DNA from: Ferrovibrio sp. MS7
GTDB lineage: Bacteria; Pseudomonadota; Alphaproteobacteria; Ferrovibrionales; Ferrovibrionaceae
DNA length: 64,000 bases
Direction: 5' to 3'
Assembly (NCBI RefSeq): GCF_038404985.1
Contig: NZ_JBBKBA010000001.1
Coordinates: 772,001 to 836,000, forward strand
The position numbers and the translations under genes were made by a program. The notes beneath the pieces are model-generated. The model had not been told where the DNA came from. It made no database searches and saw only the letters and a program-made list of their open reading frames with translations. This document shows positions 3,273-32,976 of this stretch, in pieces. The first letter of the stretch is position 1. Each line of letters begins with the position of its first letter.

Positions 3273-3469
3273 GCTTGGTTTCCACCATGCCTTTAATTAA
3301 GAGCGGTGCCTGCTTCGGGGTTCCCCTTAGCCGGTCGCCTCCCTGGCGACTACCGGCCCGGCAAGTATGGCGGGCAAGGCTGCATCGATGCAAGCGGTGC
3401 CATCATAATTCGCCCGATACTGTCTTATTGCGAGTGCAATTCACTTTAATTGAGAAAATTACCCGGCGC

Positions 3470-22998: not shown

Positions 22999-27534
<4,536 letters not shown>

Positions 27535-27557
27535 CGGCCACGCATCATGCGAAATGG

Positions 27558-27591
27558 AAAACGCCGCCGGAGCAATCCGGCGGCGTTTTTT
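27558..27591 (+). terminator. gltB Rho-independent terminator (first copy)
   Basis: AAAACGCCGCCGGA pairs with TCCGGCGGCGTTTT around GCAA, followed by Ts. An essentially identical copy lies at 29703-29735 after the duplicated gltB tail. Confidence 0.9.
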
Positions 27592-27599
27592 CTTTTAGT

Positions 27600-27770
27600 T
27601 GTCACCCCCGCGAAAGCGGGGGTCCCATTCAACCTTCTGGAAAATGAGATTCCCTGTAGGCCCAGACGCCAAAGGCGTTCGTGGGCGAACAGGCCCGAAG
27701 GGCTGGCGCGGGAGTGACTGAATTAAAAACAGAAACGCGTGGATGCCCCGCCTGAAGCGGGGCATGACGT
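27600..27770. repeat. Palindromic repeat cluster R3 between gltB and the OLD gene
   Basis: The 361-base gap after gltB holds a CCCCCGCGAAAGCGGGGG hairpin (27606-27623), then a copy of the inner module in inverted orientation (GACGCCAAAGGCGTTCGTGG, ACAGGCCCGAAGGGC), then CGTGGATGCCCCG...CGGGGCATGACGT ending at 27770. The last element is matched at 29763-29794 on the far side of the OLD gene. From 27771 to 27895 the sequence is AT-rich, with no sure promoter. Confidence 0.7.
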
Positions 27771-27895
27771 ATTTTATATTGTCATGCCTCTATGAGTTCG
27801 GGGTAGTATTCGAAAATCAGTCATAATGTATGCATTCCATATTAGTAGAGCTAACTGCTGCACACCGCTCTCCAGGATCTTTAAATAGGAAAACC

Positions 27896-29548
27896 ATGCT
27901 TTCATCAATAAAGCTAAAATTTACAGAAACGGGTGAAATATCTCTCCCAACCAAAGGCATTACAATTTTTGTGGGTCCTAATAATTCCGGTAAAAGCTTA
28001 CTGCTTAGAGAAATAGAGGCAGCATTTAATATATACCCTTTTCCAAGCCAGCTTCAGATCCTTGTAGATTATGAGATCGAGTGGCCAACTTCAGAAAATG
28101 TGCAAGCTACAATTTCTAAAGCTAAATATTATAGCCCACCTGACTTACCTATTGAGAATATTTTGTTCAGACGTATTAGTCCGGGGTCAGGCGTCGAAAC
28201 AGCACAATTAAACGAGCTAGACCTTCTCCAAATAGTAAAAGAAAAGAGAGATAAGCGGTGGATGGCTAGCCAGTATCTCAAGTGGGGGGTTATACGGCTT
28301 GATGGGCGCTCTCGCTTTAATCTGACCAATGACCAAGATGCTGGTGATTTATTGGCTTTACCGAACAATATGCTGTCGCATCTTTTTCGAGATGACGCAG
28401 CACGTCTTAAAGTACGCGACCTTATTAAAGATGCCTTTGGTTTGTATTTTGTCATAGACCCTACAAAATTAGGGCAATTACGTATTCGTCTCTCAAGACA
28501 AAACCCGCCATCAGATGAGCAATCTCTTAATGCCACGGCGCGGGAGTATTATAAAAACGCAACTTACGTGAAGGAGGCAAGTGATGGGGTTCAAGCCTTC
28601 ACAGGCATAGTTTCGGCTGTTCTTTCTGGTGAATTTCATACAATTTTAGTCGATGAGCCAGAAGCGTTTCTGCACCCACCCTTGGCGCGGAAGTTAGGAA
28701 AGAATTTGGCGACACTTACGGCTGAGAATGGTCGCATACTTATGGCTTCTACTCATAGCTCAGACTTTCTAATGGGCTGTTTGCAGGCATCATCCACTGT
28801 GCAGGTAGTTCGTTTGGAATATGCGGACGGTAAATCACGCGGGCGAATAATAGACTCAAAAGCACTTGAGGCTCTTTTCAAGCGCCCCTTGATGCGCAGT
28901 GCAAATGTAATCTCAGGGCTTTTTCACGATGGTGTCATAGTGCTCGAATCAGACAATGATCGAGCTTTCTATTCGGAAATTTACCATCGCCTTTCAGAAG
29001 GAAAGTCGAACTATCCTTCTATACTTTTTGTAAATGCCCAGAACAAACAAACAATAAAAGATATTGTTGGACCTCTTCGCCAATTTGGGGTTCCAGCGGC
29101 AGCTATTACCGATATTGATATTGTAAAGGATGGCGGGGAGACATGGACTGACTGGCTAAGTGCCGCCCAAATACCCAGCATATTACACATTGGGTATGGG
29201 CAACAGAGAGCAGCAATCTGTGATGCTTTTAAAGCAACCGGGAAAGATATGAAGACAAGCGGTGGTCTAAGTATTCTAGATGCAAAGAGCCGTGAGGCCG
29301 CAGACTTACTTTTCTCGAATTTAGAGGGGTTTGGTGTATTTCCAGTCCGAGGTGGGGAGTTGGAGAATTGGCTATCACATTTAGGTATACTAGGTAAAAA
29401 GACTGATTGGACAGTTGCAATGTTGGAGCGCCTAGGGAGCAATCCCTTGGACGCGGCATATGTAAAACCAAGTAATGATGATGTGTGGGAATTTCTAGAA
29501 AAGATCATTGCGTGGATTCAAAACCCTTCGCGGAAGGGTACAACTTGA
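27896..29548 (+). CDS. OLD-type AAA ATPase with C-terminal TOPRIM domain (candidate anti-phage nuclease)
   Basis: A 550-residue protein. The ATG at 27896 has AGGA nearby and starts directly before the ATPase fold. The ABC/SMC-like ATPase has Walker A GPNNSGKS (27-34), a degenerate signature (KEASDGVQAF), Walker B TILVDEPEAFLHP (D253-E254) and an H-loop STHSSDF. The C-terminal part has TOPRIM features: E351 in VIVLESDNDRAFYSEI and D406-I-D408 in AITDIDIV. This is the OLD nuclease layout; a fused ATPase-TOPRIM PARIS-type protein is the alternative. Base composition is AT-rich and codon use (AAA, ATA, TTA) is unlike its neighbours, so the gene was probably acquired. No partner gene is visible. 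Confidence 0.8.
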   Translation: MLSSIKLKFTETGEISLPTKGITIFVGPNNSGKSLLLREIEAAFNIYPFPSQLQILVDYEIEWPTSENVQATISKAKYYSPPDLPIENILFRRISPGSGVETAQLNELDLLQIVKEKRDKRWMASQYLKWGVIRLDGRSRFNLTNDQDAGDLLALPNNMLSHLFRDDAARLKVRDLIKDAFGLYFVIDPTKLGQLRIRLSRQNPPSDEQSLNATAREYYKNATYVKEASDGVQAFTGIVSAVLSGEFHTILVDEPEAFLHPPLARKLGKNLATLTAENGRILMASTHSSDFLMGCLQASSTVQVVRLEYADGKSRGRIIDSKALEALFKRPLMRSANVISGLFHDGVIVLESDNDRAFYSEIYHRLSEGKSNYPSILFVNAQNKQTIKDIVGPLRQFGVPAAAITDIDIVKDGGETWTDWLSAAQIPSILHIGYGQQRAAICDAFKATGKDMKTSGGLSILDAKSREAADLLFSNLEGFGVFPVRGGELENWLSHLGILGKKTDWTVAMLERLGSNPLDAAYVKPSNDDVWEFLEKIIAWIQNPSRKGTT

Positions 29549-29561
29549 TTTTCATTTTTCC

Positions 29562-29678
29562 GAGATGTTCAGCGACTGGGACTACATGCGCCAACGCTTC
29601 TGGCAGATCTGCCCGAAGGAGATGCTCTCGCGCCTCGAACATCCGCTCTCGGATGCCCAGGCAGCGAAGCGGGCGTAA
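29562..29678 (+). pseudogene. Duplicated 3' end of gltB (38 codons plus stop)
   Basis: This 117-base segment aligns without gaps to gltB 27418-27534. I count eight substitutions: seven synonymous, one changing Asn to Tyr (DWDNMRQ to DWDYMRQ). It has no start or body, so it is a gene remnant. The synonymous bias means both copies spent time under selection as part of a working gltB, so one came from a diverged relative and was not made by recent tandem duplication. Similarity begins abruptly at GAGATGTTCAGCGACTGG, 13 bases after the OLD stop, and extends through the terminator. Confidence 0.9.
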
Positions 29679-29702
29679 CGCGGCACGCATCATGCGAAAT
29701 GG

Positions 29703-29735
29703 AAAACGCCGCCGGAGCAATCCGGCGGCGTTTTT
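29703..29735 (+). terminator. Second copy of the gltB terminator
   Basis: Same stem as at 27558 (AAAACGCCGCCGGA, GCAA loop, TCCGGCGGCGTTTT). About 50 bases around it are nearly identical between the copies, more so than the coding tail. It would end transcripts of the OLD gene. Confidence 0.88.
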
Positions 29736-29760
29736 CGTTGTCAGGCCTGGGCAATAATAA

Positions 29761-29944
29761 CACGTGGATGCCCCGGCCAAGCCGGGGCATGACGTTTTTT
29801 ATGTTTTACTGTCATTCCCGCGCAAGCGGGAATCCCATTTCCATGACGACAAAATGGGACCCCCCGCTTTCGCGGGGGGTGACGAAACAATAGACGACAA
29901 CAACAAGCAAAAGCGTCATGCCCTGGCTTGGCCGGGGCATCTAC
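29761..29944. repeat. Palindromic repeat cluster R4
   Basis: Fills the gap between the gltB remnant and the convergent PLP-enzyme gene. It contains CGTGGATGCCCCG...CGGGGCATGACGT (partner of the element ending 27770), ATTCCCGCGCAAGCGGGAAT, CCCCCCGCTTTCGCGGGGGG and CGTCATGCCCTGGCTTGGCC with GGCCGGGGCATC. No coding signal is seen. Confidence 0.75.
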
Positions 29945-29966
29945 GAGTTTCCGCTTTCCGAACCAC

Positions 29967-30899
29967 TCACGCCGCGCTGGCGCCGTAGAGCGCCGTGCTC
30001 AGGTATTTCATGCCGCTGTCGCAGGCGATGGTGACGACGGTCTTGCCTGCGCCGAGGCGTTCGGCCAGGCGCAGCGCCACCAGCACGTTGGCGCCGGTCG
30101 AGGTGCCGGCGAAGATGGCTTCCTCGCGCGTCAGGCGGCGGGCCATCGCCATGGCGTCGCTGCTGGAAACCGGCGCGATCTCGTCGGCGAGGTCGGGCCG
30201 CCAATGCGGCATCACGAAGCCCGGCCCGGTGCCTTCGATCTTGTGACTGCCGCTTAGGCCCCCCGACAGCACGGCGGATTCCGCCGGCTCGATGGCGGTG
30301 ACATGCATATGTCGATTCAGTTCGCGCAGCCGGGTGCCGATGCCGCGCAGGGAGCCGGCGGTACCGACGCAATGCACGAAGGCATCGACGCTGCCGCCGC
30401 TCTGCTGCCAGATTTCGTCGGCCATCAAGCCATAGGTGGCGAACACGGATGTGTTGTTGAACTGATCGGTCCAGTAGCTGCCCGGCAGCGCCGCCGCAAT
30501 CTGCCGCGCGGTCTCGATCATTTCAAAGGTCAGCGCCCTGGTGGTGCCACCGGTCGGGCTATGTACCAGGGTCAGCCGTGCGCCGAGCGCCGCCATATGG
30601 TCGCGCTTCTCCTTCGAGAAGGCTTCCGAGGTGACGATTTCCAGCGGGATGCGTTTCGCGGCGCAGACGAAGGCGAGCGAAACACCAGTGCTGCCGCCGG
30701 TATATTCGACAACAGCTCCGCCGGGCTTGAGGCGGCCATCGCGTTCGGCCGCCTCCACCATGGCCAGCGCCATGCGGTCCTTCATGCTGCCGGTCGGATT
30801 CTCGTATTCGAGTTTCAGCAGCAGCCGCGCGGCGCCGGGCTTGTGCAGGCGGATCAGCGGCACCAGACGGGTGCCGCCGATGCAGTTCAGCATGGTCAT
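29967..30899 (-). CDS. Cysteine synthase-family PLP enzyme
   Basis: A 310-residue fold-type II PLP enzyme of the CysK/CysM/cystathionine-beta-synthase family. The PLP lysine is in NPTGSMKDRMAL, the substrate loop is EYTGGSTGVSLAF, the phosphate-binding loop is CVGTAGSLRGIG, and GTSTGANV with ACDSGMKYL closes the domain. It should catalyse beta-replacement on O-acetylserine or a related amino acid; the true substrate cannot be assigned because many paralogues exist. It ends against repeat cluster R4. Confidence 0.82.
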   Translation of the reverse strand: MTMLNCIGGTRLVPLIRLHKPGAARLLLKLEYENPTGSMKDRMALAMVEAAERDGRLKPGGAVVEYTGGSTGVSLAFVCAAKRIPLEIVTSEAFSKEKRDHMAALGARLTLVHSPTGGTTRALTFEMIETARQIAAALPGSYWTDQFNNTSVFATYGLMADEIWQQSGGSVDAFVHCVGTAGSLRGIGTRLRELNRHMHVTAIEPAESAVLSGGLSGSHKIEGTGPGFVMPHWRPDLADEIAPVSSSDAMAMARRLTREEAIFAGTSTGANVLVALRLAERLGAGKTVVTIACDSGMKYLSTALYGASAA

Positions 30900-32574: not shown

Positions 32575-32976
32575 ATGCTTAAATCCCACAACCCGCCGGA
32601 CGCGATGGCGCCGGCCGGAGCTTATAGCCAGGGTATCGAAGTCCATCCCGGCGCCCGCCTGCTGTTCATTTCCGGTCAGGTCGGCACCGATGCCTCGGGT
32701 CGCACCGGCATCGGCATCCTGGAGCAGGCGCATATGGCCTGGGCCAATCTGGGCGCGGTTTTGCGCTCAGGCGGCATGGAGCCGAAGGATATCGTCAAGC
32801 TGACGGTGTATTACGTCGGCAGCCTGGACATGAACGACGCCATGCGCAGCGCGGTGAATGCCATCCGCAACCGCTTTCTCGGCGATCATAAGCCGGCCTC
32901 CACCGCCCTGGTGGTCAGCCGCCTGATGCGGCCGGACTGGCTGATCGAGATCGAGGCTATTGCTGCCCGGCGCTGA
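32575..32976 (+). CDS. RidA/YjgF-family protein
   Basis: A 133-residue RidA-family protein, divergent from tetR, with a GAGGGGGAG ribosome-binding site. Family segments are APAGAYSQGIEV, LLFISGQVGTDASG, DIVKLTVYYVGSLD and PASTALVVSRLMRPDWLIEIEAIA. The arginine of the RidA imine-deaminase active site appears replaced in context (VSRLMRPD instead of the VARLPKD-type), so it may be one of the RidA subfamilies without deaminase function. Probably soluble and trimeric. Confidence 0.85.
   Translation: MLKSHNPPDAMAPAGAYSQGIEVHPGARLLFISGQVGTDASGRTGIGILEQAHMAWANLGAVLRSGGMEPKDIVKLTVYYVGSLDMNDAMRSAVNAIRNRFLGDHKPASTALVVSRLMRPDWLIEIEAIAARR

Follow-up and report, generated by a model that had tools for sequence, protein, structure and literature searches.

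Downstream of gltB in the alphaproteobacterium Ferrovibrio sp. MS7 lies a single AT-rich gene that an earlier note on this DNA had read as a candidate anti-phage gene encoding an OLD/Toprim ATPase. The locus raises two questions: what would such a gene do for its host, and how did it come to stand at the end of a metabolic gene? We analyzed a window of 64,000 nucleotides (the whole stretch of DNA around the gene, with positions counted from its first letter). The features at and around the gene are as follows.

22999 to 27534, forward strand: gltB, glutamate synthase large subunit, complete (Pfam GATase_2, Glu_syn_central, Glu_synthase, and GXGXG)
27418 to 27590, forward strand: left repeat copy, consisting of the last 117 nt of gltB and the terminator hairpin
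27591 to 27780, no strand assigned: dispersed repeats of host type, which separate the gltB terminator from the AT-rich segment
27896 to 29548, forward strand: predicted Class 1 OLD-type ATPase-Toprim gene, 550 aa, in a frame open from 27830
29562 to 29735, forward strand: right, truncated copy, consisting of the last 117 nt of a gltB allele, the stop codon, and the terminator hairpin
29967 to 30899, reverse strand: convergent gene for a PLP-dependent enzyme, cysK-like, which adjoins gltB on the right in three congeners

The OLD gene is intact, with positions 27830 to 29548 of the forward strand forming one open frame of 572 codons. Alignments with relatives begin at the methionine at 27896 in six of seven near-full sequences, the seventh being interrupted by a contig end, and the frames of three relatives (L047, L055, and L056) start at the position matching this methionine; therefore, 27896 is the likely start, as the earlier note had it, giving 550 codons. 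The base composition is indeed far from that of the neighbors, with a GC content of 43.6% (GC3 0.37) in the OLD gene compared to 64.4% (GC3 0.85) in gltB. Between the gene and five relatives, the third codon position differs in 62 to 68% of codons and the second in 15 to 21%. Because the differences fall mostly at third positions, the gene appears to be under purifying selection at the protein level. A search of positions 27500 to 30000 for sigma-70-type promoters found no matches, with 2.9 expected.

The product is very probably an OLD-type ATP-driven nuclease, judging from profiles, aligned residues, and predicted fold. Its C terminus matches the Pfam family PF20469 (OLD-like_TOPRIM) at 33.3 bits, above the cutoff of 23.2, and the AAA_21 and AAA_15 matches likewise exceed their cutoffs; DUF4435, the other family against which the earlier note proposed to search the C terminus, was not among the six Pfam families matched at E ≤ 1. 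Old was the best of the 100 PADLOC models matched (82 bits, 1e-23), followed by AriA (55 bits, 2.3e-15) and NsnB (2.7e-15), and the best GajA match among the best 25 of these 100 families was at 2.5e-7. Six solved sequences matched at E ≤ 1, and the only OLD protein among them was that of Thermus scotoductus (6p74).

Substitutions at 11 residues of the Old protein of phage P2 are reported in PMC7049728 to abolish its lethality in vivo: K37, D299, H306, H332, E398, and E402, and further D453, D455, D541 (for which the text has a reservation), E543, and K550. We took the P2 Old sequence from phage P2 and added it to an alignment of 23 sequences, which left out two of the 18 nearly full-length viral loci described below (L063 and L066), as well as L048 (close to L047) and the fragment L053. 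The motifs of the Ferrovibrio protein, all encoded on the forward strand, align with P2 Old as listed here.

27959 to 27997, forward strand: ATPase P-loop region, ITIFVGPNNSGKS, with K33 of the Walker A motif GPNNSGKS, aligned to P2 Old K37
28646 to 28678, forward strand: Walker B and D-loop, LVDEPEAFLHP, with D253 and H260, corresponding to P2 Old D299 and H306 and invariant in 23 of 23 rows
28751 to 28759, forward strand: H-loop THS with H287, corresponding to P2 Old H332 and invariant in 23 of 23 rows
28946 to 28960, forward strand: Toprim metal residues E351 and D355 in ESDND, aligned to P2 Old E398 and E402
29111 to 29119, forward strand: Toprim DID motif with D406 and D408, aligned to P2 Old D453 and D455
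29357 to 29365, forward strand: Toprim metal B residues E488 and E490 in ELE, aligned to P2 Old D541 and E543

Counterparts were thus found for 10 of the 11 residues, of which 8 are identical (K33, D253, H260, H287, E351, D406, D408, and E490) and 2 are conservative replacements (D355 and E488), and all 10 are invariant in every alignment row that covers them. The earlier note had named Walker A, Walker B, the H-loop, and the acidic Toprim residues E351, D406, and D408; each of these aligns to a catalytic residue of P2 Old, and D355, E488, and E490 complete two metal sites with the latter three. The basic catalytic residue near the C terminus of OLD proteins is K550 in P2 Old and arginine in T. 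scotoductus OLD. The K550 column holds G500 here, with K501 and K502 adjoining.

The structure prediction that the earlier note had also proposed gave a confident AlphaFold2 model from the 23-sequence alignment (pLDDT 89.8, pTM 0.87). Foldseek ranked T. scotoductus OLD (6p74) first (E 3.6e-11), followed by a chain of the retron-Eco8 complex, SMC/Rad50 heads, and GajA; the full-length agreement with 6p74 is low, with a TM-score of 0.38 of the query, an rmsd of 14.1, and 16% identity. The 50 matches listed by a second structure aligner were mainly SMC/Rad50 heads and PtuA; 6p74 was absent among these 50, which chiefly cover residues 1 to 345 and not the Toprim half.

Relatives of the gene are scattered over bacteria and prophages, and the gene was, on this sequence comparison, acquired horizontally. 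Our scan of 84,980 species genomes yielded eight loci, seven of them in Mesorhizobium, Polynucleobacter (two), Phenylobacterium, an alphaproteobacterial MAG, Asticcacaulis, and Lysobacter, with 54 to 70% identity, and the eighth (L053) a 42-residue fragment in a MAG of Acidobacteria. A viral collection contained 39 loci, including 18 of nearly full length with 35 to 69% identity. Among phage records, 2 of 50,697 were close to the OLD gene, both of them P2; among plasmid records, 8 of 72,556 matched at no more than 38% identity (in Paracoccus, Lactococcus, Streptomyces, Arthrobacter, and Priestia). The gene is absent from all eight congeners at E ≤ 0.001 and from all 17 other genomes of the order that were searched at E ≤ 1e-60. 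Counting the Ferrovibrio genome itself, matches occur in 10 of 385 genomes of the class at E ≤ 1e-30, only three of which exceed 300 bits, and in 3 of 398 genomes of the phylum. The earlier note had held that presence in all strains with vertical inheritance would speak against its reading; we found instead absence from the congeners and presence in distant bacteria and viral contigs. One class genome with a match above 300 bits (G202; locus L113, 4234 to 5320) carries a broken close relative that is divided between two frames and has lost its middle, Walker B included.

The commonest gene clusters near these relatives are portal and terminase, each in 5 of 24 loci, and no other cluster exceeds them. 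In 5 of 24 loci, a P2-type portal gene is found no more than four ORFs from the OLD gene; it is directly adjacent in four of them and one ORF away in the fifth. Those tested were identified as portal by PHROG (two of two) and Pfam (four of four), and the terminase by Pfam (two of two). In phage P2, old is the cos-proximal gene, and PMC9122126 describes a P2 hotspot between gpA and the portal gene gpQ. The relatives thus partly sit at the locus where phage P2 keeps old, and the subfamily is well conserved, being common to viral contigs and bacterial chromosomes. No non-structural partner recurs among the 24 loci. Genes of an SOS-associated (SRAP) cluster lie within four ORFs of the OLD gene in three of them (L055, L058, and L068), with SRAP confirmed by Pfam in L055, the one gene of the cluster tested. 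An integrase gene occurs near the OLD gene in Polynucleobacter, and a nucleotidyltransferase gene near that of Asticcacaulis.

Taken from sequence, the best reading of the gene's function appears to be single-gene interference with phages. A housekeeping or DNA-repair OLD protein with no part in phage interference is distinctly unlikely. The OLD family does include a cell-cycle protein, the archaeal Cran1 (PMC12796447), and the SRAP-cluster genes near three relatives would suit a role in repair; however, the foreign base composition, the patchy presence across the class and absence from congeners, and the fact that viral contigs carry relatives, some of them at the P2 old locus, all argue against it.

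The gene has no recognizable partner in its neighborhood, as the earlier note had observed. Nine of the ten neighboring proteins had no PADLOC match at E ≤ 1e-5, AriB was not matched in any of the ten at this threshold, and the tenth matched only PD-T4-2_B. This last is a Ribonuc_L-PSP protein (32575 to 32976) that matches at 1.2e-9, probably through a shared housekeeping domain. A UvrD-like helicase directly downstream, the mark of Class 2, is absent; the copied gltB tail and the PLP-enzyme gene stand there. Class 1 OLD proteins are defined in PMC10568477 by their solitary context, so a lone gene with no recurrent partner fits Class 1.

Comparison with known systems agrees with this assignment. 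P2 Old (NP_046798.1), the founder of the OLD family, has the same domain order, the same catalytic residues, and a single gene, and the relatives occupy its prophage locus beside the portal gene; it differs in that only 24% identity over 51% of the query is shared and that the gene here is chromosomal, with no phage gene recognized alongside. T. scotoductus OLD, a solved Class 1 protein, is the best OLD match by sequence among solved structures as well as the first by Foldseek, but it is distant, as its identity and TM-score show. As described in PMC13261556, E. coli YbjD (OldB) is also a lone chromosomal Class 1 gene convergent with its neighbor and combines an ATPase with Toprim. Gabija GajA (Class 2) and the retron-Eco8 effector (Class 3) were both among the Foldseek matches, but they have a helicase or reverse-transcriptase partner of which none is seen here, the Eco8 model reaches 21.8 bits against a cutoff of 250, and GajA scores below Old in PADLOC. 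The Gabija, retron, and PARIS readings are all weaker, having lower profile scores and partner genes that are not seen nearby. A PARIS-like system, in which an AriA ATPase has a fused or lost AriB/DUF4435 effector, is very improbable: the AriA model matches the related ATPase half at 2.3e-15 and the fused AriAB model matches residues 272 to 428 of P0001 at 7.6e-12, but Old outscores both (82 versus 55 and 43 bits), DUF4435 is unmatched at E ≤ 1, no partner is seen adjacent, and the residues of OLD proteins, among them the metal B pair, are present in the C terminus. The earlier note had left the choice between OLD Class 1 and a fused PARIS-like protein; the first is supported, with 82 bits for Old, and the second is not favored, as the fused AriAB model, among the best 25 of the 100 matched PADLOC families, reaches 42.7 bits. 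The explanation that accounts best for the locus, and that we consider quite likely, is a horizontally acquired, solitary Class 1 OLD protein that would sense and cleave in the manner of P2 Old.

In computed terms, the protein joins an ABC/SMC-like ATPase to an OLD-type Toprim domain and has the residues required to turn over ATP and to cleave phosphodiester bonds with two metals. The most likely chain of events, by analogy with P2 Old, would consist of sensing, ATP-driven release, and Toprim cleavage. The protein would idle as an ATP-binding dimer, and a sign of infection would release the dimer; for P2 Old, this sign is inhibition of the host RecBC, caused by lambda Gam. The released protein would then cut host tRNA or DNA, and the infected cell would stop making phage. 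Cleavage of host tRNA by activated P2 Old is attributed to recent work cited in PMC13261556, and DNA exonuclease activity in vitro is known from PMC10568477. The earlier note expected an active ATP-dependent nuclease, and this is best kept conditional because E. coli YbjD, another Class 1 protein, acts on phage without its Toprim domain, as stated in PMC13261556.

How the gene arrived is suggested by the DNA on either side of it. The earlier note placed it in an insertion, and this is borne out by three of the seven congeners with a parsable gltB end (G002, G004, and G005), in which the convergent PLP-enzyme gene directly follows gltB after a short interval. The other four show a further gene after gltB (G003 and G007), other sequence (G008), or a contig end (G001). 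In G003 and G007 (L018 and L017), the PLP-enzyme gene is missing, and the gene after gltB reads as the one that comes next in the window, a MAPEG gene, identified in the window by Pfam. The same-species genome G061 (72% complete) provides no empty site, because gltB and the flanking sequences are both missing from it.

The earlier note did not mention that the 3' end of gltB is repeated, which is a new observation here. Direct repeats at 27418 to 27590 and 29562 to 29735 bound the insert, one of them completing gltB and the other beginning 13 nt past the OLD stop codon. The copies are 94% identical over 174 columns, with a local alignment score of 152 compared to a maximum of 16 in 60 shuffles. 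Their coding parts differ at 8 of 117 nt, of which 7 are synonymous third positions (chance approximately 0.003 if all sites were equal), and the sole amino acid change, N to Y, is carried by the right copy; at this site, the congeners have N in two of seven cases and Q or M in five. Over 90 nt, two of the seven congeners are equally distant from both tails, and the other five are nearer to the left copy by 1 to 4 nt. Because unselected decay would not keep such a synonymous pattern, most of the divergence arose in two working gltB alleles.

Several ordinary explanations for these repeats do not fit. A transposon target-site duplication can be set aside, since the copies are 174 columns long, share only 94% identity, and have synonymous differences. 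Integration at a tRNA gene fails because the window holds no tRNA. A general hotspot at gltB is likewise rejected: of 18 genomes searched, 14 have a match to the gltB tail, and the Ferrovibrio genome is the only one of them with two tails, the other 13 each having one. Phage_integrase has no match in the window; the genome has nine, and the closest of those on this contig is approximately 440 kb away. The repeats at 27591 to 27780 match other places in the same genome at 73 to 93% and are also found in G061. Families of GC-rich hairpin repeats (ATGCCCCG...CGGGGCAT and others) occur at 27591 to 27780 and at 29755 to 29950, with many copies in G000 and G061.

Gene-tail copies also occur beside other OLD genes. 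We tested six intact loci that belong to the close subfamily and lie on bacterial contigs, and three have one: that of Ferrovibrio, that of Asticcacaulis, and that of genome G356. In Asticcacaulis (L051, 8402 to 8486 and 9449 to 9533), the 85-bp 3' end of a PhnB-like gene (Pfam 3-dmu-9_3-mt) recurs at 95% identity, with a score of 77 compared to 22 for the best shuffle; the copy stands between the PhnB-like gene and the OLD gene, and DUF4844 and nucleotidyltransferase genes lie between the two copies. In G356 (L112), 35 bp of azlD recur at 83% (score 23 compared to 16 for shuffles; 0 of 2,000 in another shuffle test). In both Asticcacaulis and G356, the OLD gene is beyond the tail copy, not between two copies. 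The remaining three loci, in Mesorhizobium (L046), the MAG (L050), and Lysobacter (L052), have no tail copy; that of Mesorhizobium is also downstream of azlD, as identified by Pfam, yet lacks one.

Tail copies of azlD were found without an OLD gene in G775 (L138; 123 bp) and G777 (L139; approximately 83 bp) and were not seen in G761, G763, and G766. Tail copies of azlD are thus present in three of six genomes examined, and differing small cargo lies downstream of azlD in several genomes. Just beyond the copy in G775 are GmrSD_N and HEPN genes. In the azlD copies and in that of Asticcacaulis, the end lies no more than 5 nt from the stop codon.

We screened 931 frames of at least 100 aa at 23 loci, antisense frames included, with a score threshold of 30, below which the G356 copy (score 23) falls. 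Of the 26 matches with a score of at least 30, five are the only ones assignable to gene-tail copies: one each for gltB and the Asticcacaulis gene, two for azlD (G775 and G777), and one in a frame that runs antisense to the copy in G775. The remaining 21 comprise 17 in one repetitive stretch of Lysobacter L052 and four elsewhere; three of them in L052 and one in L141 likewise end within 3 nt of a stop codon. As a background, repeats at E ≤ 1e-4 occur in 14 of 87 windows, two of these 14 being OLD loci with tail copies. Ten further OLD loci (the broken close relative and nine distant ones, L117 among the loci of the repeat search having a short left flank) showed no repeat at E ≤ 0.001 in eight cases and weak ones in two. 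One of these, L120 (reverse complement, 2662 to 2711 and 3374 to 3423), has a weak 50-bp repeat of 72% at the end of a 271-aa frame, with the second copy just upstream of the distant OLD relative, which makes a further gene-tail copy possible; the other, L121, has three weak repeats.

From these observations, the 2.1-kb insert (27591 to 29735) would have come with DNA that carried the end of a related gltB allele, and its arrival would have left it with a complete gltB on one side and a truncated gltB tail on the other. Candidate routes are site-specific integration that supplies a tail, a single crossover of a circle, or one homologous and one illegitimate junction. The last two amount to a one-off accident of homologous recombination in the gltB tail with a linear or circular donor fragment, a route whose chances of being right or wrong we consider evenly balanced. 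It accords with divergence lying mostly inside working gltB alleles, with host-type repeats inside the insert, and with no recombinase of the Phage_integrase family being seen there, the nearest integrase match on the contig being so distant. In an E. coli test of illegitimate recombination described in PMC3240628, partial gene duplications were the main product, and single-crossover products carried gene duplications of 109 to 950 bp in 14 sequenced clones. This route leaves unexplained the tail copies beside two other close relatives, as well as the fact that the azlD and Asticcacaulis copies end so near the stop codon.

The alternative is a small element without an integrase of its own, which would target the 3' ends of genes and bring along a copy of the tail; its movement would depend on a recombinase acting in trans or on one that has since been lost. 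We regard this as possible and rather doubtful. It would account for the tail copies beside OLD genes in three of six close loci, involving gltB, a PhnB-like gene, and azlD, for the azlD copies in G775 and G777 that lack an OLD gene (one of them next to GmrSD_N and HEPN genes), and for the screen, in which the only assignable copies were these. On the other hand, the OLD genes of Asticcacaulis and G356 are not enclosed by the copies, half of the close loci and eight of the ten further loci have no copy, only 1 of 14 genomes with a match has a second gltB tail, and no attachment core was identified, nor a recombinase in the search with Phage_integrase. We favor the recombination accident over a cassette that supplies a tail because single-crossover products with duplications of 109 to 950 bp have been seen in E. 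coli. The broader proposition, that lone defense genes travel as recombinase-less cassettes into the 3' ends of metabolic genes such as gltB, azlD, and the PhnB-like gene, is unlikely. We found no apt printed report of gene-tail copies beside defense genes, which is no proof of their absence.

Isolated Class 1 OLD genes are poorly understood, and they are called rare, with a figure of 0.45% of bacterial genomes quoted in PMC13261556. Because the subfamily described here is conserved across viral contigs and bacterial chromosomes, it would be a good test of P2-type sensing and nuclease action beyond enterobacteria. OLD genes of this kind are already known as anti-phage genes that are often borne by prophages; what is new is the adjoining copy of the gltB tail. 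The gene-tail copies beside three OLD genes suggest a searchable mark of integrase-free movement of single-gene defenses, and if the cassette reading were true, such copies would mark a general, unrecognized route by which these genes spread outside prophages and defense islands.
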